From assembly GCF_000425405.1 (NCBI RefSeq), contig NZ_AUDJ01000001.1:186001-250000 (forward strand): 64,000 nt of DNA, given 5' to 3'. Below are positions 49,904-60,062 of the stretch, piece after piece. The notes beneath the pieces were generated by a model. The model searched no databases, was not told the origin of the DNA, and was given only the letters and a program-made list of their open reading frames with translations. The first letter of the stretch is position 1. Every line of letters begins with the position of its first letter. This stretch comes from Ferrimonas kyonanensis DSM 18153. Its GTDB lineage: Bacteria > Pseudomonadota > Gammaproteobacteria > Enterobacterales > Shewanellaceae. Both the position numbers and the translations under genes were made by a program.

Positions 49904-50299
49904 TTACTTGCGTTTCAGGTCCGGGTATTTGAACTCGTGGCAGTTGTTGCAGTAGACCTCGGTCTTCTTGTGCTGAGCGTGGCAGTAGACACAGCTCAGA
50001 TCCTGGCCATAGTGCAGGCTGTCGTGAGGGTTCGGCTCGTAGTCGGCGCCGTGACCCGGACGGGCCGTCTGCTGGGCCAACTCCTCTTTGCTGCCGTGGC
50101 AGGTCAGGCAGTTGTCCTCTGACGGAATGGTGTAGGGCTTGCTGTCACCGTGACAGGTGGAGCACTCGACGTTGCCCTGTTCGTCGGTAAAAATCTCTTT
50201 GTGATACGACTTCAGTGGCATCTTGGCGGCCAGGGCCGGAACGGACAGGCTCACGCCGGCGGCGATGAAGGCGGCAATAAGTGCGTTGCGAGTAGACAT
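49904..50299 (-). CDS. Periplasmic tetraheme cytochrome c (flavocytochrome c heme subunit)
   Basis: A 131-residue protein with a signal peptide (LIAAFIAAGVSLSVPALA) and four CxxCH motifs: CSTCH, CLTCH, CVYCH and CNNCH. The spacing matches the heme domain of Shewanella fumarate reductase FccA, including the end VYCNNCHEFKYPD. In FccA and UrdA this domain is fused to the flavoprotein; here it is a separate subunit encoded 30 bp after it. It should carry electrons from the quinol side (for example CymA-type dehydrogenases) to the flavin. The ATG at 50299 follows AGGAG. Confidence 0.92.
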   Translation of the reverse strand: MSTRNALIAAFIAAGVSLSVPALAAKMPLKSYHKEIFTDEQGNVECSTCHGDSKPYTIPSEDNCLTCHGSKEELAQQTARPGHGADYEPNPHDSLHYGQDLSCVYCHAQHKKTEVYCNNCHEFKYPDLKRK

Positions 50300-50329
50300 G
50301 CTGTCTCCTGAATTCAAAAGGGCGTTGGC

Positions 50330-51892
50330 TTAAGCCTGCTTGAGGGAAATGGCGGACGCCGCTGCGGCGCTGCGAGCCGCATTGCGGCCGGTTACCACCC
50401 CTTCGGCCACCGCACAGGCGCCCAGGCGAGAGGCGCCGTGGATGCCGCCGGTGGCTTCCCCTGCCGCGTACAGGCCGGCAATGGGTTTATCGGACACCAG
50501 GTGCAGCACCTCAGACTGGGTGTTCACTCGAACGCCGCCCATGCAGTAGTGCACTTTTGGCCACATCCGCACCGCGTACCACGGCCCTTCCGTCAGCTCA
50601 AAGGCCTGCATCAGCGGCCGCCCGAACTGTTGGTCTTCTCCGTCGCGCACAAACTGGTTCCACTGTGCCACCTGGGCCTTCAGCTTGTCGGCCGGTATGC
50701 CGTACTCGTTGGCCAGTTGCTCCAGGGTGTCGGCTTTCTTGATGACGTCGTACTTCATGCCCCAGGCCAGGGTTTGCGCCTTGGCGGCCCCCTTGGCGTT
50801 GGTCAGGCCGATGGGGTACACCGGTTTGCCCTGCTCATCGCGGCGGGTCATGATGGCGTCGGCCCGGGCCTTACGGTCCGCCAGTTCATTGAAGAAGCGT
50901 TCACCGGTGCGGGCGTCGACCACGATGCCGTTCTGGTAGGTGGCGGCGGTGTTGAACTGCGAGGCGGTGCCGAAGCCTTTCTCATCGGGAGAAGACCAGG
51001 GACCCAATTGAATCTGGTCCAGGTGGATGGGGTTGGCACCGATCAGCATCATCTGCTTCAGGGCGCCGGCGGTGGCACCCGGATGGTTGGTGGAGTCCAG
51101 TTCCGAGGTCAGCTTAGGTTGCTGCATCTGACGGAAGTCGATATCGCGACCGAAGCCACCGGTGGCCATGATGACCCCTTTGCGGGCGCCCAGGGTGCGC
51201 ATCGAGCCGGTCCGCTCTTTCGGGAAGAAATACTGGCTTTTGACGTTGACGCCGATAACGCGCTGGTCGTCATCCTGAATGAAAGACTCCAGCTTGGTTT
51301 GCTTGTACATGGTGACGCCGATCTTCTCTGCCGCCTTGATCAGCGGACGGATGATGCCGGCACCGGAGCTTTCGCGGGTCTGCAGGACGCGGGGCACGGA
51401 GTGGCCGCCGAAGTGCTGAACGAAAGGCTTCCAGACGGTGCCGTAGCTTTCCAGCCACTTGGCCGACTCTGAAGTACCGTTGCATACCAGTTTCAGCATG
51501 TTGACGTCGTTCATGCCCCGGCCGGATTTCAGCATGTCGCTGACCATCAACTCGATGCTGTCGTTGACGCCCTCTTTGGCCTGCAGTTCTGAGCCTGCCA
51601 CCGCCATGGCACCACCGTTGATGGTGGAGTTGCCGCCAAACACCGGCATCTTATCGATTACCAGCACCTTGGCGCCCTCTTCGGCGGCTTGTACCGCCGC
51701 CGACATGCCGGCAAAGCCGGAGCCGACCACGATGATGTCGAACACTTCGTCGAACTGTTGAGGGGCGGGTGTGCAGCTTGCTTTGGCCTGAGCCTGGCCG
51801 GTCACCATCATGGTGCCCATGCCGGCCGCCAGCGCGGCGCCTTTTTTCAGTAACGCCCGACGGGACGCCACCATGTTGTTGTTGTTGGTCAT
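50330..51892 (-). CDS. Tat-exported FAD fumarate-reductase-like flavoprotein (unsaturated-acid reductase)
   Basis: A 520-residue flavoprotein. A Tat signal (SRRALLK, residues 10-16) precedes the FAD-binding GSGFAG (57-62) and the fumarate reductase fold. Arg in NELADRKA lines up with the proton-donating Arg402 of FccA, and Arg in GASRLGAC with Arg544. The His-Pro-Thr that helps bind the second carboxylate of fumarate (QAHPT) is replaced by QLGPW, so fumarate is an unlikely substrate; a mono-acid such as urocanate, thiourocanate or cinnamate fits better. It shares an operon with the tetraheme cytochrome, behind a sigma-54 promoter. GGAG precedes the ATG. Confidence 0.88.
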   Translation of the reverse strand: MTNNNNMVASRRALLKKGAALAAGMGTMMVTGQAQAKASCTPAPQQFDEVFDIIVVGSGFAGMSAAVQAAEEGAKVLVIDKMPVFGGNSTINGGAMAVAGSELQAKEGVNDSIELMVSDMLKSGRGMNDVNMLKLVCNGTSESAKWLESYGTVWKPFVQHFGGHSVPRVLQTRESSGAGIIRPLIKAAEKIGVTMYKQTKLESFIQDDDQRVIGVNVKSQYFFPKERTGSMRTLGARKGVIMATGGFGRDIDFRQMQQPKLTSELDSTNHPGATAGALKQMMLIGANPIHLDQIQLGPWSSPDEKGFGTASQFNTAATYQNGIVVDARTGERFFNELADRKARADAIMTRRDEQGKPVYPIGLTNAKGAAKAQTLAWGMKYDVIKKADTLEQLANEYGIPADKLKAQVAQWNQFVRDGEDQQFGRPLMQAFELTEGPWYAVRMWPKVHYCMGGVRVNTQSEVLHLVSDKPIAGLYAAGEATGGIHGASRLGACAVAEGVVTGRNAARSAAAASAISLKQA

Positions 51893-51934
51893 CTTAATCT
51901 CCAGTGCACCTTGGCATTGATATGCCAGAGTCAG

Positions 51935-51950
51935 TGCGAAGGTCGTGCCA
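51935..51950 (-). promoter_or_regulatory. Sigma-54 promoter of the flavoprotein-cytochrome operon
   Basis: On the minus strand TGGCACGACCTTCGCA: a perfect -24 element TGGCACG and GC at -12 with the exact spacing of the consensus TGGCACG-N4-TTGCW. Predicted start near 51924, giving a 32-nt leader before the ATG at 51892. Confidence 0.85.
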
Positions 51951-52002
51951 GTTAGGGTTTTTCAGGGAAAAAGGAGGGGATTTATGATCGGCCCCACACG
52001 AG

Positions 52003-52053
52003 CACGACATTTCGGGGAATGGGGTTACGGTATTTAGTAGGGGTTACGAATGC
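52003..52053. promoter_or_regulatory. Activator binding site upstream of the flavoprotein operon
   Basis: CACGACATTTCG at 52003-52014 is the reverse complement of CGAAATGTCGTG, the motif also seen before the lyase and porin genes. TTACGGTATTT (52025-52035) and TTACGAATGC (52044-52053) are partial copies. It lies about 85 bp upstream of the predicted start, suited to a sigma-54 activator. Confidence 0.65.
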
Positions 52054-52163
52054 TGGTGCTCGTCTGGCTGGTTGGGATCGCGACATGAGGGGATAAAAGC
52101 GAAAGTTTGTTTTGTTGGCGTGGTACGGGTGTGGCATTTGGGGTGTTTCTACGAAATAACGTA

Positions 52164-52189
52164 AAAAGCCGGCGCTGAGGCCGGCTTTT
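52164..52189 (-). terminator. Terminator of the lyase gene
   Basis: AAAAGCCGGC (52164-52173) and GCCGGCTTTT (52180-52189) pair around GCTGAG, with T residues following on the minus strand. It lies 18 bp after the lyase stop. Confidence 0.88.
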
Positions 52190-52206
52190 GCGAGAGTCGG
52201 AGTGAC

Positions 52207-53853
52207 TTAGTAGGCTTTTACAAATTCAGTAGAGGCCTTGAAGTCCGGAGTGTAAGGGCGGTCTTTGTCCACGAACTTAACCAGTTTGCGGTATTCCTTG
52301 TACATCTTACCGGTCTCTTTACCCAGCTTCAGCTTAGGGTTGTCCAGCTTGCGCAGGTCGATGGCCTGAGCGGAGTGGAACAGTTCCAGACCGAAGATGG
52401 TGCTGAGGTTGTCGGAGATCTGAATCAGGTTGTCGGAAGCCAGCTTCAGGTTGGTGAAGGTGTCTTCGATGTTACCGGCGATGGCCACACCCTCGAAGCT
52501 GACTGGCTGAGCCAGTTGCTTGTTGCGAACGTGCAGGTCAACGTAAGCTTTCTGAATGGCACCGAAGGCGTGACCCATGTTGCCTGGCGCAGTCAGGAAG
52601 CGCGGCAGGTGAGTGAAGTGGTCATCGGACAAACGGGTAGAGCGCATCACGGAGTTGTGAGACACCTGAGTCATTGCCACGCTCAACTGCTGTACCGCCA
52701 TGGCCACCGGCAGTGGGTTGAAGTTGGTGGTCGGGAATACGCCGCCTTTGCCGTCGATCAGGTACTTGGCAACCTGAGGCTTGTTGACGTATTTCTTACC
52801 TGGGTTGAGTACGACCGCCGGGTTGTCGTCGGAGGCGTTGATCTGAATCTTCAGCATCGCTTCCAGCTCGTCCGCCGCTTTTTCAGCCATGGCGAAGGTG
52901 TAGCCGGAGGTACGGAAAGACAGCGGATCCTGCAGTGGACGGGTGTCGTTCAGATCCCACAGGTAGGAGCCATCCAGCTTGCTGAGGATGGTGTCTGAGG
53001 TCGCCTGAACGTAAGGGAACGGACGCACGCCATTGGTTTGTGGCAGGAATGGCGCCACGTTGCCGTTCAGACCTTCCAGGGACAGGCCAAACAGGGTTGG
53101 GGCCACTTCCAGAACCTGCTCGGCGTCTTTCAGACCCTGCATGGCGTAAGCGGTGGCGAAGGAGTTGTTGGACAGGATGGACAGTGCGTCTTTGCCGATG
53201 GGGTCCAGCGGCTTGATGCCGGCTTTCTTCATCGCCTTGGAAGAGCTCATGCGCTCACCCTTGTAGAACACTTCCCACTCGCCCAGCATTGCCAGACCCA
53301 CGTGGGACGCCAGCAGGATGTCGGCTTCGCCTACGGTACCCTTGGATGGGATAACCGGCACGATGTCGTTGTTCAGGTAAGCTTCGTACAGATCCGCGAC
53401 CTGAGGTTGTACGCCGGTTTGACCGTGCAGCAGGGTGTTCAGGCGCACCGCCATACCCAGACGAACCATTTCGGCAGGCATCGGCTCACCCACGCCGGCG
53501 CTGTGAGCGCGCAGGGCGTTGATCTGGAACTCTTTGGATGCCTTCAGGGCTTCCTTGGTCATTTCACCGCTGGCATCAAACAGCTTGTGGTCCTTGTTCA
53601 GGCCCACACCCACGGTCAGACCGTAGACCGGCTTGCCCAGGCGTGCTGCGGTCATCAGGGTGTCGTACGCCTTGTCCAGACGCTTTTCTGCTTTGTTGGC
53701 AATATCCACATCGGCGTCGCCAGCCGCAATGGCCCAGGCTTGGTCGATGGTCATGTCAAAACCGTTCAGAGTGATGGTGTCTTTGGCCAATGCCGAACCT
53801 GCGGTCAGGCTCAGGGCCAGTGCAACAGCAACTTTACTTGTTACAGCTTTCAC
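52207..53853 (-). CDS. Exported HAL/PAL-superfamily lyase without MIO; ergothionase-like candidate
   Basis: A 548-residue protein with a signal peptide (KVAVALALSLTAGSALA) and the full fold of histidine/aromatic amino acid ammonia-lyases: VYGLTVGVG (residues 76-84) keeps the active-site Tyr, and HSAGVGEPMP, DPLSFRTSGY and NASDDNPAVV follow in order. The segment that should read GSVGASGDLAP, whose Ala-Ser-Gly forms the MIO electrophile, reads GTVGEADILLA (172-182), so MIO cannot form. Ergothionase, which expels trimethylamine from ergothioneine, is a known MIO-free member, and a betaine substrate fits best. The start is GTG 53853, eight bases after GGAG; a longer ATG start would leave almost no leader after the sigma-54 promoter. 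Confidence 0.82.
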   Translation of the reverse strand: MKAVTSKVAVALALSLTAGSALAKDTITLNGFDMTIDQAWAIAAGDADVDIANKAEKRLDKAYDTLMTAARLGKPVYGLTVGVGLNKDHKLFDASGEMTKEALKASKEFQINALRAHSAGVGEPMPAEMVRLGMAVRLNTLLHGQTGVQPQVADLYEAYLNNDIVPVIPSKGTVGEADILLASHVGLAMLGEWEVFYKGERMSSSKAMKKAGIKPLDPIGKDALSILSNNSFATAYAMQGLKDAEQVLEVAPTLFGLSLEGLNGNVAPFLPQTNGVRPFPYVQATSDTILSKLDGSYLWDLNDTRPLQDPLSFRTSGYTFAMAEKAADELEAMLKIQINASDDNPAVVLNPGKKYVNKPQVAKYLIDGKGGVFPTTNFNPLPVAMAVQQLSVAMTQVSHNSVMRSTRLSDDHFTHLPRFLTAPGNMGHAFGAIQKAYVDLHVRNKQLAQPVSFEGVAIAGNIEDTFTNLKLASDNLIQISDNLSTIFGLELFHSAQAIDLRKLDNPKLKLGKETGKMYKEYRKLVKFVDKDRPYTPDFKASTEFVKAY

Positions 53854-53928
53854 TATGCTTTCTCCAGCTTTTGTATTGTTAGTCTGCGTAAGACAAACAG
53901 GGATTCCCATTCATCGATGACAGACAAT

Positions 53929-53944
53929 TGCAGCTTGTGTGCCA
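53929..53944 (-). promoter_or_regulatory. Sigma-54 promoter of the lyase gene
   Basis: On the minus strand TGGCACACAAGCTGCA: TGGCAC at -24 and TGCA at -12, exact spacing. Predicted start near 53918, 65 nt before the GTG start codon at 53853. Confidence 0.85.
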
Positions 53945-53995
53945 GCCGTGCCAAAAGCCGGTTTTGGGGGCGGAACTATGATCGGCCACGGGCAG

Positions 53996-54047
53996 TTACG
54001 AAATGCCGTGAAACGACTTACCGGATTTCGTGGGACGCTACGAAATC
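53996..54047. promoter_or_regulatory. Activator binding sites between the lyase and regulator genes
   Basis: CGAAATGCCGTG at 53999-54010 matches the shared motif CGARATGYCGTG. Next to it GATTTCGT (54024-54031) and ACGAAATC (54040-54047) form a perfect eight-base inverted repeat with an eight-base spacer. Both lie 80-130 bp upstream of the lyase start and could also affect the divergent regulator gene. Confidence 0.7.
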
Positions 54048-54113
54048 TAACTATGGCAGTGGCGGTGGTGGTGAACAGAGTGTGGCAGTAAATGTGGGGT
54101 GAGGTAATGGCTG

Positions 54114-54431
54114 CAACTGAGGAATTATCAGGCTGTGAGCTTGCTCAAATAACCGTGGCTTTCATGAGCCTAAGTGGGCTGCGACAATAACTGTGAGCTG
54201 GATCCTTTATTATCGATATAAATAATTGAAATGAGGTCAGAATTAATAAATTAGTGAAATATGTAGACTGGATCTCATTTGGCATTTTAGTTTTTTTGTC
54301 GTGGATAATCGGTGATTTTCAGGTGTTTTCTTAATATCGCTTTTTTAGCTTCAAATACATGACCCAATCCTCGGTATTGCCTCGCTTCAGCTTTTAAAAT
54401 GACGACAATTCGTAATTGAGGGCCCAGTGTT
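54114..54431. other. AT-rich upstream region of the sigma-54 activator gene
   Basis: About 320 bp, strongly AT-rich between 54190 and 54370, without a gene. It should contain the promoter of the activator; several TTGAAA/TAATAA-like hexamers are possible but none stands out. Confidence 0.4.
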
Positions 54432-55967
54432 ATGTCTACCGAGCTGAAGTTTTTCTATGAGGTGACTCAGCACCTGTCCGGCAGTTTGCAGTTGGATAAG
54501 TCCCTGAAGCACTGCTTTGACTACCTGGTCCAGCACATTCCCATCGATGGCATCTACATCAACCTGTTTATGCAAGAGAGCCAGGAGATTCAGATGGTGG
54601 CGCACGCCGACCGTCAGGGGGGACAACTGCTGGATCGTCGCATCGCGCTGACGCCCGAGATGTGTGACTCCCTCAATGATCGCGAGCGACCGCCCATCCG
54701 CATTCTGAACCACATCTCTATGGATGGGGTCAGCCATCACGTGCTGTCGCAGCTTATTCCCGGTGCCAAATCATTGATGCTGTTAAGAATGCAGTGTGAT
54801 GATTTTCATCTTGGGGTGGTGGGACTGTACGCCAACCAGGAGCAAAGCTTCCGCGCGCGCCATGCGGATCTGCTGCAATCCCTGCATCAGCCCTTCAGCA
54901 TGGTGACGGCGTTCAACCTTCAGGGGCGTAACCTGTTGGCGGAGAAAGCGCAACTGGAGGCGGAGAACCGCAGCTTACGCCGCTCTATCGACAGTCGAGA
55001 AGACGTCATCGGCGCCAACAGTGGTCTGCGTCAGGTGATGGAGCAGGTCGAGGCCATCGCACCGCTGGACAGCACGGTGCTGATTAACGGTGAGACCGGT
55101 TGTGGTAAAGAGGTGATTGCCAACGCCATTCACACCCGTTCTTCCCGATCCAACAAGCCGTTTGTGAAGGTGAACTGCGGGGCGATTCCCGACTCGTTGA
55201 TCGATTCCGAACTGTTTGGTTATGAAAAGGGCGCCTTTACCGGCGCTGAGAAGCGTAAGCAGGGCTATTTCGAGCAGGCCAACGGCGGCACCATCTTCCT
55301 GGACGAGCTGGGGGAGCTGCCGTTGTCGGCCCAGGTGCGCTTGTTGCGGGTACTGCAGAGTCGCACCATTGTTCGGGTCGGGGGCATCGAACCGGTGGAA
55401 TTGGACATTCGCATCGTGGCGGCGACCCACAGGGATCTGCAGCAGATGGTTAAGGCTGGCTCGTTCCGTGAGGATCTGTGGTACCGGCTCAATGTGTTCC
55501 CCATCGCCATTCCGCCGCTGCGCCATCGCCGTGAAGATGTGCCGTTGCTGGTTCATCATCTGCTGGAGCAGTTTTTGACCCGCTTCAAGCTGGATCGCTT
55601 GCCCTCCATTGCCCCGGAACAGTTGGCCAAGCTGCAGAACTACGCCTGGCCGGGCAACGTTCGTGAACTGGTGAATGCGGTCGAGCGAGCGATGATTCAG
55701 TCCCGAGGGGCGCCGTTGGTGTTTGACTTTCTCAGTACTGGCGGCGAGCCGGAAACCGGTCACAGTGGTGGCGGAGAGACGGTGGTGATCGACCCCAGTC
55801 GTGCCAGTGATCACTTGGTGTCACTGGACACCATGACCGCCAAATACATTGAGCATGCCCTGAGGATCACCGGCGGCAAGATTCACGGCAGTGGTGGGGC
55901 AGCGGAGAGGCTGGAGATTCACCCCAATACACTGCGCAGCAGAATGAAAAAGTTGGGGTTGATGTAA
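54432..55967 (+). CDS. Sigma-54-dependent activator (GAF-AAA-Fis)
   Basis: A 511-residue enhancer-binding protein. Residues 1-170 form a GAF-like sensor domain, then a linker helix. The AAA+ domain has Walker A GETGCGKE, the sigma-54 contact loop GAFTGAEK and Walker B GGTIFLDELGE. A Fis-type HTH closes the protein (EIHPNTLRSRMKKLG). The GAF domain may sense the substrate or a product directly, since no sensor kinase is nearby. It is divergent from the lyase gene and is flanked by three units with sigma-54 promoters, its likely targets. Confidence 0.93.
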   Translation: MSTELKFFYEVTQHLSGSLQLDKSLKHCFDYLVQHIPIDGIYINLFMQESQEIQMVAHADRQGGQLLDRRIALTPEMCDSLNDRERPPIRILNHISMDGVSHHVLSQLIPGAKSLMLLRMQCDDFHLGVVGLYANQEQSFRARHADLLQSLHQPFSMVTAFNLQGRNLLAEKAQLEAENRSLRRSIDSREDVIGANSGLRQVMEQVEAIAPLDSTVLINGETGCGKEVIANAIHTRSSRSNKPFVKVNCGAIPDSLIDSELFGYEKGAFTGAEKRKQGYFEQANGGTIFLDELGELPLSAQVRLLRVLQSRTIVRVGGIEPVELDIRIVAATHRDLQQMVKAGSFREDLWYRLNVFPIAIPPLRHRREDVPLLVHHLLEQFLTRFKLDRLPSIAPEQLAKLQNYAWPGNVRELVNAVERAMIQSRGAPLVFDFLSTGGEPETGHSGGGETVVIDPSRASDHLVSLDTMTAKYIEHALRITGGKIHGSGGAAERLEIHPNTLRSRMKKLGLM

Positions 55968-55983
55968 TTCAGCGTCTAGAAAG

Positions 55984-56011
55984 AAAAACGCGGCCACGGC
56001 CGCGTTTTTTT
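55984..56011 (+). terminator. Terminator of the activator gene
   Basis: AACGCGGCC/GGCCGCGTT around AC, followed by seven T; 20 bp after the stop. Confidence 0.9.
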
Positions 56012-56020
56012 ATGCCCCAT

Positions 56021-56046
56021 AAAAAAGCCACCGCTCAGGCGGTGGC
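56021..56046 (-). terminator. Terminator of the porin gene
   Basis: GCCACCGC (56027-56034) and GCGGTGGC (56039-56046) pair around a four-base loop; on the minus strand six T follow (56026-56021). Confidence 0.9.
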
Positions 56047-56084
56047 AAAAGGGTCAGGAAATAAAACAGGGTGTTGAGGTTCGG

Positions 56085-57221
56085 TTAGAAGTAGTAACCG
56101 AAGTTGATGTTGATGCGCTGATCCCAGCCGTCGCCGGCTTCTGGCAGACCAACGTGGTCGTCCATCTTGGTGGAGAAGGTCATGTTTTTACCCATGATGA
56201 AATCCGCCATGATGTAGATCGGGCCGGCCGAGAAGGCGGCACCGGTAACGTTCTGGTAGCTGTTGTCGTAGCTGCTGTCATCCACGTCGGGAGTCATCAG
56301 GCCGAAATCGTTGTAGATCTTGACGCTGCCCCAGGAAGTCGGGATGGTTTTCGCCAGGTTGAAGGAGTAGATCTGACCCTTGGAAGCCACTTCATACTGC
56401 CAGCCAGCGCCGCCCAGACCGATCTTGTTGTTGTCCATGCCGTCTGGATTTTCGGCATCAAATTCGTACTGCATCGCTTGCAGTTGCAGTTTCCAGCCCT
56501 GGTAGCCTGCGTCCATGTGGACGGCAAAGGCGTTGCGGTCACCGTTTTTCTCGGTCTTGCTGTTGTAGATCTGGCCGTACTCCAAAGAGCCACCCATGAC
56601 GATTTTCAGGTCACCGTCGCTGAGGGTGTAGGTCTGACGCAGGTTGATCTGGTTGGTTTCTTCGTTGTTGTACTCGGTGCCGTTAACGGTGCCGGAGAAG
56701 ATGTCAGGGGCGTAGGCTTTGGTGTCTTTGGAGTTGTATTCGCCGTTCTTGTAGAAAGCGATGTCGGTGTGCCATTTGCCGTTGTCGAAGGTGGCTTTGG
56801 CGCCAACATCGAAATCATCCTCGAAGCCCAGGTAGTAAGGCAGACCGAACCACCAGCTGTTGGAGATGAAACCCGGGTTACCGAATGGGACCTTGTTGAT
56901 ACCGAACTGCAGCTGCCATTCCGGATCGATGTTGTAGTAACCGTAGCCCCATTTGATGAAGTTTTTGCCGGAGGCAAAACGGTATTCGCTGGACAGACCC
57001 CAGTCGCCGTGGGTGCCATCAAATTTAAGCGTTAATACGTCAAAATTCAGGTCGCCGCCTTTATCTTTTGACTGGTCGTTATACAGCTTCATGCCGTAAT
57101 TAACACGAACGGAACCACCGATATTCATGCCATCTTCTGCCGCGGCATTTACGGTGTATAAAGAAGACAAGAGTGCCGAAATAACTAAGGCAGATTTTGT
57201 CAGGCGCATGCTGTTCATCAT
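56085..57221 (-). CDS. Outer membrane porin of the sigma-54 module
   Basis: A 378-residue outer-membrane protein: signal peptide (SALVISALLSSLYTVNAAA), then alternating strands such as GGSVRVNYGMKLYN, LTLKFDG, GLSSEYRFASG and a C-terminal INFGYYF with terminal Phe for barrel assembly. It is rich in Tyr, Asn and Gly like specific porins. The ligand is not evident from sequence. The sigma-54 promoter and shared activator motif suggest it admits the substrate of the lyase-reductase pathway. AAGG precedes the first of two ATGs. Single-gene unit. Confidence 0.82.
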   Translation of the reverse strand: MMNSMRLTKSALVISALLSSLYTVNAAAEDGMNIGGSVRVNYGMKLYNDQSKDKGGDLNFDVLTLKFDGTHGDWGLSSEYRFASGKNFIKWGYGYYNIDPEWQLQFGINKVPFGNPGFISNSWWFGLPYYLGFEDDFDVGAKATFDNGKWHTDIAFYKNGEYNSKDTKAYAPDIFSGTVNGTEYNNEETNQINLRQTYTLSDGDLKIVMGGSLEYGQIYNSKTEKNGDRNAFAVHMDAGYQGWKLQLQAMQYEFDAENPDGMDNNKIGLGGAGWQYEVASKGQIYSFNLAKTIPTSWGSVKIYNDFGLMTPDVDDSSYDNSYQNVTGAAFSAGPIYIMADFIMGKNMTFSTKMDDHVGLPEAGDGWDQRININFGYYF

Positions 57222-57258
57222 ATTTACCTTTCAGTGTTTGTTTTTGTGGTAAATACAG

Positions 57259-57274
57259 AGCACGGGCTGTGCCA
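57259..57274 (-). promoter_or_regulatory. Sigma-54 promoter of the porin gene
   Basis: On the minus strand TGGCACAGCCCGTGCT: TGGCAC at -24 and TGC at -12 with exact spacing. Predicted start near 57248, 27 nt before the ATG. Confidence 0.82.
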
Positions 57275-57349
57275 AGCAGGAAAAAACCTGAATCGCGGCT
57301 GAATTTCTTGAATCCGGATTTGCAAAAACGATATCTGGTGATTTTGCGG

Positions 57350-57382
57350 TTACGAGATGTCGTGAGATTAACGATATTTCAC
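57350..57382. promoter_or_regulatory. Activator binding site upstream of the porin gene
   Basis: CGAGATGTCGTG at 57353-57364 inside TTACGAGATGTCGTGAGA matches TTACGAAATGCCGTGAAA before the lyase gene at 15 of 18 positions. AACGATATTTCAC follows at 57370-57382. Centre about 110 bp upstream of the predicted start. Confidence 0.7.
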
Positions 57383-57845: not shown

Positions 57846-60062
57846 TCAGTCCGAGCCGTGGACCTTGTCGATGCCAAAGGTTTTGCCTTCGCCATGACAG
57901 GTACTGCAGCTCTCTACCGGCAGGTTGGCGCTGCTGTCCGGGTTGCTGTCGACGGTGGCGCCGTTGCTCTCGAAATGGGCCATGGCCGCGGCATCGGCGT
58001 GGGCGTGACAGGAGCGGCAGCTGGCGGCGACGGGAGACACGTACTGGTCGGTGCCAATGGCGATGGCCCGTTTACCGGACATCAGGCCGCCGTCGGCCGC
58101 AAACAGCGGTTGATCGGCGCTGTGGCAGGCACCGCACTGGACAATGCCATTGGGGTAGCCTTGCAGTTCGGCCTCGGCGTTGAGGTACACCCCCTGGGCC
58201 TGGTCGTTGTCCCAGGCGCCGCTGTGGTAGCGGTGAACCACGGTGACCAGATCCCGGTTACTGAAGCGGATGCCCTCGACCTCAGTGGCGCTGCCATCGT
58301 CATTAATCACATTGACCGTCGGGTGGAATGAGCCGGCCCAGGTGCTGTTGTGGCAATGCATGCACTGAGTAAACTCGGTTACCCCATGGCTGCCTTTCAC
58401 GTGGGTGAGGTTTTCGTGGCAGGCGTTACAGGCGGTTTCGGTTACCGAGACCCGGTCGGGCTGACTGTGGCGAGCCGTTGTCGGGCTGCCGCCGTCGAGG
58501 TTGAAGTAGGCCACCGGCGCGTGATTGGCGTAGCCGGTACCGTCGGCCTCACAGGGCATCGCCGCACCCTGTTCGCCGCAGAACTGCACCTCGGCGGTCA
58601 GATAGATGCTGCCGCTCAAGCTGCTGTCGGCCAGATCTTTCGCTACCGTCAGTACGCCGCCGCTGAGGCTGACCCGATCCGGTGCGTTGATGGTGAGGGT
58701 GGCATTGCGGGTCACCACGCCGTCGGTATCGACGTTGCCCAGCAGGATGCCTCGACCGGTGTTGGTCATGTAGGGGGTAAAGTCGAAATCGTCGGCGGCG
58801 GGGGCGCCATTGAAGGTGACATTGGCAGTGACCGTCAGGGTACTGAGGTCATCGGCGAGGCCGTTGTCACTGACCACTGCGGAGGTAAACTCAAACCCCA
58901 GCCCTTCATTGGCCAGCATCAGTGCCCGGCGCATCGGTTGGTGGCTGTACTCCACGGTACCGGGCAGTCCGGGACCCGCCGGTGGCGCATCGGGGCCATG
59001 ACAGCTGTCACAGCTGCGATCGCTGCCGACGGCGGCGATGTGGTTGGCGGCGTCCTCACTGGTATGACAGGACTGACAGGCCTGGCCGTAGAGGTTGGCC
59101 TGCCAGCTGTCCTGTTCACCGTGACAGTGCTTGCATTGAAACAGTTCGCCGGGAAATCCGACCGCGTCAAATCCGTCCCGAATGCCGGCGTGCAGATCGT
59201 GAATCATGGCGGGGAAATCGGCATCGCCCAGGGCCGGAGTGTGGCAGGCCACGCATTGCTCCACTTTCTGGTAGTTGGAGTGGGTGTCCAGGTAGGCGAT
59301 GCGCGGGTCGTCATCCGGGTAGCCTGGCAGTGCGCCGTGGCACTGGATGCAGGCGCCATTGGTGACACTGTCTTTGACTGAGACCGCCAGGGCATCGCTG
59401 GCGGGAATGAAGTCCAGCGGTGTCGACAGCACTTTGTCCGCCACCCCTTCGCCATTGCTGTCATTGAGATCATAGGCCCGAATGATCACCCGGTGCAGCA
59501 AGTTGGGGTCGCCATCGGCCAGCACCACTGGCGCATTGCCATCATGGCTCCAGCTGCCGTGGTAACGGCCCGGAGTGGCCTCATCCTCGACCAGGGTGCA
59601 GGCATTAATCTCATTGCCGCCCCGGTCGGTGGTTTTTCCGGTCAGGGTACAGGTCATGGACGAGCCGGCGCCGTTGGCCTGAGTGTGGCTCTGCCACTGG
59701 GTCGGTGCGCCGCTGTCGCCGCTGTTGGTCGACTGATTCATCACGTACAGGGCGATGCGTGACAGCCCGACCAGGGGTACTCGGTTGCCACCATTGAGGC
59801 CGCTGGCGCTGAATTCGATGCTGAAGGGATCGCTGCCGGTGACCACCACGTCACCGGGTTGCAGCATCAGCTCAACCTCGGCGGCCGATTCTGCGGTGCG
59901 GGTAAAGGAGCCGGCAGGCAGGCCGGGATCCCCCGGAGGTCCAGGGGGACCTTCCGGCCCCGGGGCGCCGTCGGCGCCATCGTCGCCGTCACAGCCAAAG
60001 ATCAACAGAGAGGCCCCCAGCAGCAGGGCTGAGCGTGTTGCAGCTGACTGAATCATCATCAT
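57846..60062 (-). CDS. OmcA/MtrC-family decaheme c-type cytochrome lipoprotein
   Basis: A 738-residue outer-membrane cytochrome. A lipobox (LIFGC, Cys24) is followed by a short collagen-like run of Gly-X-Y triplets (about residues 26-52), then beta-rich and heme domains. Ten CxxCH motifs fall in two pentaheme groups: CIQCH, CVACH, CKHCH, CQSCH, CDSCH; then CNACH, CMHCH, CGACH, CRSCH, CSTCH. This is the layout of cell-surface metal and flavin reductases such as MtrC/OmcA. No mtrA or mtrB is next to it, so the trans-membrane partner must be elsewhere. Confidence 0.92.
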   Translation of the reverse strand: MMMIQSAATRSALLLGASLLIFGCDGDDGADGAPGPEGPPGPPGDPGLPAGSFTRTAESAAEVELMLQPGDVVVTGSDPFSIEFSASGLNGGNRVPLVGLSRIALYVMNQSTNSGDSGAPTQWQSHTQANGAGSSMTCTLTGKTTDRGGNEINACTLVEDEATPGRYHGSWSHDGNAPVVLADGDPNLLHRVIIRAYDLNDSNGEGVADKVLSTPLDFIPASDALAVSVKDSVTNGACIQCHGALPGYPDDDPRIAYLDTHSNYQKVEQCVACHTPALGDADFPAMIHDLHAGIRDGFDAVGFPGELFQCKHCHGEQDSWQANLYGQACQSCHTSEDAANHIAAVGSDRSCDSCHGPDAPPAGPGLPGTVEYSHQPMRRALMLANEGLGFEFTSAVVSDNGLADDLSTLTVTANVTFNGAPAADDFDFTPYMTNTGRGILLGNVDTDGVVTRNATLTINAPDRVSLSGGVLTVAKDLADSSLSGSIYLTAEVQFCGEQGAAMPCEADGTGYANHAPVAYFNLDGGSPTTARHSQPDRVSVTETACNACHENLTHVKGSHGVTEFTQCMHCHNSTWAGSFHPTVNVINDDGSATEVEGIRFSNRDLVTVVHRYHSGAWDNDQAQGVYLNAEAELQGYPNGIVQCGACHSADQPLFAADGGLMSGKRAIAIGTDQYVSPVAASCRSCHAHADAAAMAHFESNGATVDSNPDSSANLPVESCSTCHGEGKTFGIDKVHGSD

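Follow-up and report, generated by a model that had tools for sequence, protein, structure and literature searches.

A putative periplasmic lyase-reductase module for respiration of a histidine-type betaine in Ferrimonas kyonanensis

Ferrimonas kyonanensis DSM 18153 is a γ-proteobacterium of the family Shewanellaceae; this work deals with a group of five genes at positions 49904-57369 of a 64,000-nucleotide stretch of its contig NZ_AUDJ01000001.1 (positions 186,001 to 250,000, here called the window). These genes encode an exported lyase that lacks the tripeptide forming the 4-methylideneimidazole-5-one (MIO) group, a flavoprotein reductase exported by the twin-arginine (Tat) route, a separate tetraheme cytochrome, a sigma-54-dependent activator and a porin-like protein. 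The lyase and the reductase, which an initial annotation of this DNA had already placed together, turn out to be one conserved exported unit, and the lyase very probably feeds the reductase. Judging from its sequence, the lyase is probably a trimethylamine (TMA) lyase of an imidazole betaine. Also from sequence, we lean slightly towards the complete assignment, i.e. that ergothioneine is split in the periplasm into TMA and thiourocanate, and that thiourocanate is then reduced as a form of respiration. The genes are the following:

52207..53853, minus strand: exported MIO-less enzyme of the aromatic-lyase fold, candidate TMA-lyase of the ergothionase type; GTG start, signal peptide of the general secretion (Sec) type
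50330..51892, minus strand: Tat-exported flavin adenine dinucleotide (FAD) reductase of the flavocytochrome c family, GPWxSPDExGFG subfamily, candidate thiourocanate reductase; without haem and without flavin mononucleotide (FMN) domain
49904..50299, minus strand: separate tetraheme cytochrome c with four CXXCH motifs, candidate electron donor
54432..55967, plus strand: sigma-54-dependent activator, divergent to the lyase; weak GAF-like N-terminus
56085..57221, minus strand: porin-like exported protein; relatives adjoin other flavoprotein genes

All five genes named in the initial annotation were confirmed, the activator being the one on the plus strand; the signal types were judged by eye or by pattern. 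The cytochrome, with its four CXXCH, matches PF14537. Two descriptions had to be softened. The sigma-54 domain of the activator is clear in a Pfam scan, but the GAF assignment of its N-terminus depends on a weak match (PF13185, E 0.028) under the family cut-off. The porin-like protein looks exported and is 46-73% identical to five porin-like proteins that adjoin other flavoprotein genes, but it has no Pfam match even at E 10.

The exported lyase and its relatives

The lyase belongs to PF00221 (412 bits) and, as initially annotated, is MIO-less; by eye it begins with a Sec-like signal peptide. Translation probably starts at the GTG at 53853-53851, which follows a GGAG and gives a protein of 548 amino acids; the longest open reading frame (ORF), from an ATG 57 bases upstream at 53910, adds 19 residues, and in two orthologous loci (L026 and L028) the valine codon that corresponds to the GTG of the window opens the longest ORF. 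Where histidine ammonia-lyase (HAL) has SVGASGD the window enzyme has TVGE-ADI, so that the MIO tripeptide is lost together with one deleted residue, as in ergothionase. Among the intact orthologues ASGD occurs in 0/29 and GEAD in 29/29, and IQK or VQK as well as NKD are present in 29/29. The Glu and both Lys of these motifs are common to the ergothionase of Treponema and absent from the four HAL rows compared. Conserved in all 29 are also the Glu of the IED motif and a Ser/Ala-His pair, which we take to be of the histidine type.

The best match of the lyase by sequence (phmmer) is the ergothionase 6s7j, with E 8e-86 versus 2e-55 for the best HAL, and by profile ergothionase scores 435 versus 269 bits. 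The same structure is the top Foldseek match (5e-32, 36% identity over 523 columns) when an AlphaFold model of the lyase (predicted local distance difference test, pLDDT, 81.9) is used as query. Because the enzyme is closest to ergothionase, ergothioneine is the best guess for the substrate, in agreement with the type of substrate that had been suggested initially; on these comparisons the lyase family looks like one of imidazole-betaine TMA-lyases, with ergothioneine as the likeliest single substrate. The alternative that the gene is an ordinary hutH was rejected, given that the ASG of MIO is absent and that TIGR01225 reaches 276 bits, about half of its cut-off of 539. A MIO-type hutU-hutH pair is located elsewhere in the same genome (contig C1, ~7.0-10.2 kb).

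A tree of 33 chosen lyases, whose deep order is unsure given a midpoint root and several long branches, parts MIO from MIO-less enzymes with support 100/100 and groups the window clade (12 rows) with 99/98. The sister of this clade is formed by a second lyase of F. kyonanensis, a second lyase of F. senticii and a set of lyases linked to the urocanate reductase UrdA, described below. Next outside come the exported lyases of the genome G185 and of two Paracoccus, then those of Sinorhizobium and Paraburkholderia, and beyond these the Treponema ergothionase, the Polaromonas enzyme and a group of Burkholderia type from clusters with thiourocanate hydratase. The second lyase of F. kyonanensis (contig C27; L005 5607-7262) is also exported and MIO-less, has GTAD instead of GEAD with Thr and Lys at the Glu195 and Lys454 places, and shows no reductase neighbour within 18 kb; in F. 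senticii (L031, 11981 on) the first lyase and a second one of the GTAD type form a tandem pair.

Of the three exported lyases that branch just beyond the window clade and its sister, two belong to gene clusters that also encode thiourocanate hydratase (NF058530; 997 and 1046 bits, cut-off 930) and thiohydantoin desulfurase (NF058529; 616 and 551 bits, cut-off 440), the values being for L066 and L126, respectively. The former (L066 5089-10911) is in G185, a 2.3-Mb genome of the same order, has a transporter between the lyase and those genes, and probably represents ergothioneine breakdown with a periplasmic first step. The latter is on a plasmid of Paracoccus denitrificans, with ~1.5 kb between the lyase and those genes. 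In five genomes of a phylum sample that carry thiourocanate hydratase, no close relative of the window lyase was found nearby; four of them have a MIO-less lyase that is distantly related (28-30% identity), carries GCAD and does not look exported, and in the fifth none was found, so that thiourocanate hydratase is no general marker of the lyase clade. Exported-looking MIO-less lyases were also seen on plasmids of Paracoccus, Sinorhizobium, Polaromonas and Paraburkholderia (L070-L073, from the 30 best and 40 spread records among 602 of a tblastn search). Where annotated, they bear the name hutH or aromatic amino acid ammonia-lyase in spite of lacking MIO. A gene of the PF03601 exporter type lies directly before the L072 lyase and 7.6 kb from that of L070.

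The reductase and its pairing with the lyase

The flavoprotein scores 485 bits with TIGR01813 (cut-off 285) and has the Tat motif SRRALLKK by eye; the domain scan detected neither a haem nor an FMN domain, PF04205 included. The catalytic Arg, His and Arg (R411, H520 and R560 of UrdA) are kept in 30/30 orthologues, which all share IQLGPW and SQF(N/A)T as well. The substrate pocket is altered, as had been noted initially: the His, Glu and Arg of fumarate reductase are replaced by Gly, Ala/Ile and Tyr/Phe, the place of UrdA Tyr373 is occupied by Gly in 30/30 orthologues, and that of UrdA Glu177 by Ala. A role as fumarate reductase was rejected, since these three residues, which serve the second carboxylate and the proton path, are replaced and the tetraheme cytochrome is a separate gene. 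In a tree of reductases the window protein groups with other Tat flavoproteins of its own genome, not with UrdA or Fcc3. A separate UrdA-like protein is present in F. kyonanensis, and an UrdA-like reductase occurs in 32 of the 52 genomes with the lyase described below, where a second urocanate reductase would thus be redundant; on these sequence features, the window protein as urocanate reductase is disfavoured.

The initial annotation had proposed to look for co-occurrence of the genes in related genomes and had named its absence as a refutation; the module withstood this check. Of 146 genomes of the family, 53 have a reductase orthologue (E <= 1e-190) and 52 a lyase orthologue (E <= 1e-200), and the 52 with the lyase all have the reductase too; given that these genomes are mutually related, the counts give no fair probability. 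The two genes share a contig in 52/52 and are within 400 bp of each other in 49/52, the remaining distances being 412, 449 and 2406 bp. In a collection of contigs, 30/30 loci carry the lyase, the reductase and the tetraheme gene within a few kb, and 28/30 the activator; the two misses (L043, L050) are loci that start ~1 kb before the flavoprotein. Three gene orders were observed: lyase-flavoprotein-cytochrome in Ferrimonas, flavoprotein-lyase-cytochrome in Shewanella and flavoprotein-cytochrome-lyase in Duodenibacillus. The porin type of the window is present in 5/30 loci and a second porin family in 20/30 (two members scanned, both matching Porin_1). With ORFs on the opposite strand and one porin family set aside, no further ORF cluster recurs in more than 14 of the 30 loci.

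Outside the family the distribution of the lyase is patchy and rare: in a sample of the order, 8/394 genomes have the window type at E 1e-90 (F. kyonanensis included; seven of the eight in the family), and in the phylum sample 1/398 at 1e-75, which is F. kyonanensis itself. Duodenibacillus is a gut genus. A Duodenibacillus metagenome-assembled genome (Sutterellaceae) has a lyase, flavoprotein, tetraheme protein and activator 54%, 56%, 44% and 35% identical to those of the window. Its sigma-54 site is perfect, and the locus showed no porin. The lyase of F. sediminum (L025) is 99% identical to that of the window. A locus labelled Marinobacter nauticus (L029) has the module much as in F. balearica, both lyases being 77% identical to the window's, and perhaps reflects a mislabelled genome, contamination or a recent transfer. 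In Shewanella marina (L053 10001-11607) the reading frame of the lyase is split into two pieces.

The sister exported MIO-less lyase, 44% identical to that of the window, was found in 10/146 family genomes (E <= 1e-190), all of them Shewanella. An UrdA-like gene (E <= 1e-220; 42/146 genomes have one) lies within 5 kb of it in 10/10, and in five within 207 bp; examples are L067 3167-10724, L115 9883-13520 and L114 9561-17725. In one genome (G821) the lyase directly adjoins another flavoprotein and the UrdA-like gene is 3.4 kb away. All ten UrdA-linked lyases have the motifs GLSD and YTLQN, i.e. Leu and Asn at the places where the window clade and the Treponema ergothionase have Glu195 and Lys454, and 8/10 of these genomes carry the window-type lyase as well. 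Read plainly, each lyase would supply its own neighbour: the UrdA-linked enzyme would make urocanate, and the window lyase probably provides its reductase with something other than urocanate. This arrangement suggests that the UrdA-linked lyase is a periplasmic urocanate supply, perhaps from hercynine, and makes the origin of the urocanate used by UrdA directly testable; in the accessible text of PMC10882135 the source named is histidine ammonia-lyase.

Regulatory sites of the module

The following sites were located in the module, all on the minus strand:

53997..54010: palindrome CACGGCATTTCGTA upstream of the lyase
52150..52163: palindrome TACGTTATTTCGTA upstream of the flavoprotein
57351..57364: palindrome CACGACATCTCGTA upstream of the porin
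53929..53944: sigma-54 -24/-12-like site TGGCACACAAGCTGCA, lyase
51935..51950: sigma-54 -24/-12-like site TGGCACGACCTTCGCA, flavoprotein
57259..57274: sigma-54 -24/-12-like site TGGCACAGCCCGTGCT, porin
52161..52206: terminator-like hairpin stretch behind the lyase, AAAAGCCGGC to GCCGGCTTTTT, with a fold of -18.0 kcal/mol; it parts the lyase from the flavoprotein

In the 4.93-Mb assembly the palindrome YACGNNATNTCGTA is matched exactly at three places, before the lyase, the flavoprotein and the porin. The reversed pattern, used as control, has one match. Since the pattern was drawn from these same three sites, the telling part is that the assembly holds no further exact match. The version before the flavoprotein recurs with at most one mismatch in L025-L031, L038 and L054, a level that 2.0% of random 300-bp stretches reach, and in Shewanella mostly with two to three mismatches.

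Within the window, sigma-54 sites with at most one mismatch are at chance level (8 versus 8.9 expected). With up to two mismatches, a site is present before the flavoprotein in 29/30 loci (searched over 360 bp before and around the start), and in 5.1% of random 300-bp stretches; L032 is the miss, and L037 has another site, 211 bp off. A gene for an MtrC/MtrF-like multiheme cytochrome (window 57846-60062) adjoins the module behind a small ORF and has no exact palindrome in front.

Proposed pathway, precedents and alternative readings

The substrate would enter the periplasm through the porin, and the exported lyase would split off TMA from a betaine of the histidine type; with ergothioneine, the likeliest candidate, the product would be thiourocanate. 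The double bond of this acid would then be reduced by the Tat flavoprotein to yield 3-(2-thioimidazolyl)propionate, with electrons that, by likeness to Shewanella, may be drawn from the quinol pool and reach the flavoprotein by way of the tetraheme cytochrome. The divergent activator would switch on the lyase, the reductase-cytochrome pair and the porin together, probably in response to the presence of the substrate or the product. From the likenesses described here we infer TMA as the leaving group, ergothioneine as the substrate, thiourocanate reduction, the electron route and the inducer.

The general plan has a precedent. The claim that a periplasmic lyase-reductase pair had not been described did not hold, because the gene map of Shewanella sp. 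MR-4, in the part of PMC3338564 available, already shows dddY, the gene of the periplasmic dimethylsulfoniopropionate (DMSP) lyase, with fccA/fccB (flavocytochrome c and tetraheme cytochrome c), and excerpts of PMC4427408 propose that such reductases deal with the acrylate made by the lyase. A similar operon exists in F. kyonanensis itself (L118), where DddY (NF053571, 708 bits, cut-off 650) accompanies a Tat flavoprotein, a tetraheme protein and a porin 59% identical to that of the window. Hence the module follows the same plan with another lyase family, and is a new variant. DddY, which is unrelated, cleaves DMSP and yields acrylate as the acid, and the reductase pocket differs, whereas the window lyase belongs to PF00221; what is shared is an exported lyase of an onium acid beside a Tat flavoprotein and a tetraheme protein, with a porin in L118. 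Both the leaving group (TMA versus dimethyl sulfide) and the acid are probably different. Four such Tat flavoprotein-tetraheme operons in addition to the module were observed in F. kyonanensis (L117-L120, contigs C3, C11 and C1), with porins 46-73% identical to that of the window; in L117 and L120 the operon includes an exported-looking cupin, and the porins are 70% and 73% identical. These operons suggest a modular set of enoate respirations.

Among single enzymes, the ergothionase of Treponema denticola (6s7j/6s7q) shares with the window lyase the fold, the loss of MIO and the Lys/Glu positions, and is its best match in sequence and structure; the window enzyme differs in being exported, in its pairing with a reductase, in a Val for Arg and in an identity of 36%. 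UrdA of Shewanella (6t85-6t88) shares the FAD reductase superfamily and the catalytic Arg/His/Arg, but it has an FMN-binding domain and Tyr373 and belongs to a separate clade; the initial description of it as a fused flavocytochrome is wrong, as its sequence has an FMN-binding domain and no CXXCH, and its FMN is covalent by the text available from PMC7921117. The methacrylate reductase Mrd/Mcc of Geobacter sulfurreducens AM-1 also combines a Tat flavoprotein with a Sec-exported tetraheme cytochrome; by its description in the accessible part of PMC4427408, it has Trp at the fumarate-His position, where the window reductase has Gly, and its operon consists of mrd and mcc, with no lyase. In gut bacteria, thiourocanate derived from ergothioneine sustains both growth and ATP synthesis in an anaerobe (PMC13405746 in the portion available, citing Zhou 2025); there the steps are divided between bacteria, whereas here the lyase and the reductase are side by side in one genome. 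A literature search over titles and the beginnings of abstracts, covering part of the long result lists and leaving most subscription journals outside, found no description of the module.

Several observations weigh against ergothioneine and thiourocanate as the pair of compounds. On the lyase side, the Arg beside the active Tyr of the Treponema ergothionase (chain position 57) is Val in the window enzyme, as it is in the L066 and L126 lyases; the lyase of Paracoccus saliphilus, also with GEAD and IQK, lies with ordinary hutU/I/H/G, and the Paraburkholderia cluster contains an ordinary urocanate hydratase, which speaks against a clean substrate call. One Ferrimonas (G030; L132 6144-10525) has the reductase, the tetraheme protein and the activator (44%) without the lyase, and its channel is 42% identical to the Tsx-type protein of an UrdA cluster. 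On the reductase side, the AlphaFold model is poor (pLDDT 69.8), so that the altered pocket is a matter of alignment. UrdA Asp388 falls on Gln (MAFFT) or Ala (HMMER); gut UrdA can have Gln at this position, where it is able to form a similar hydrogen bond, and Glu177 is not conserved (both in the text available from PMC7921117). The pocket therefore rules out fumarate better than urocanate; as far as the alignment goes, the only points against urocanate are the Gly that replaces Tyr373, the loss of the Phe residues of the lid and the lack of an FMN domain.

The main alternative keeps the same periplasmic respiration, but the substrate would be hercynine (histidine betaine) or ergothioneine sulfonate, and the acid urocanate or sulfonated urocanate. 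The hut genes of P. saliphilus and a putative sulfate exporter 7.6 kb from its lyase, which has the same signature as that of the window, would fit either substrate; sister exported lyases sit near UrdA, and a Gln at the Asp388 place may still bind an imidazole. We nevertheless regard this reading as rather unlikely, considering the Gly in place of Tyr373, the missing FMN domain, the separate UrdA-like protein in the genome, and the Leu and Asn of the ten UrdA-linked lyases (three of them in the alignment) at Glu195 and Lys454. An improbable alternative has another betaine, aromatic (e.g. that of tryptophan or of tyrosine) or small, as substrate of the lyase and a cinnamate-like acid as that of the reductase: the small residues Ala and Gly at the Glu177 and Tyr373 places would suit it, the GPWxSPDExGFG subfamily is without a proven substrate and one member lies with DddY, but imidazole betaines are indicated by those relatives whose structure is solved or whose gene neighbours are informative, and the His of the Ser/Ala-His pair and the Glu of IED are constant. 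Still less probable is a role in detoxification or scavenging, in which the lyase would liberate TMA and the reductase would do no more than remove a reactive acid. Such a role has been proposed for the related methacrylate/acrylate reductase (excerpts of PMC4427408), but the tetraheme partner, the sigma-54 control exerted jointly with the porin and the lack of any further ORF cluster in more than 14 of the 30 loci, opposite-strand ORFs and a porin family aside, are at odds with it.

Ergothioneine cleavage followed by thiourocanate reduction thus remains the reading that we favour. A wider proposal, to which we give somewhat less than an even chance, is that matched periplasmic pairs respire histidine betaines: ergothioneine by the window pair, and hercynine by the exported MIO-less lyase beside UrdA. 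If true, UrdA would gain a dedicated periplasmic source of urocanate; ergothioneine, a widespread antioxidant of fungi and bacteria, would be a source of electron acceptor within one cell, beyond cross-feeding, and TMA would be released with each turnover. An exported GEAD/IQK lyase adjoining an IQLGPW reductase provides a sequence handle for sediments and for Sutterellaceae such as Duodenibacillus. Together with the DMSP/acrylate case, the splitting of onium acids outside the inner membrane followed by enoate respiration would then be a general strategy of Ferrimonas, Shewanella and some Sutterellaceae.

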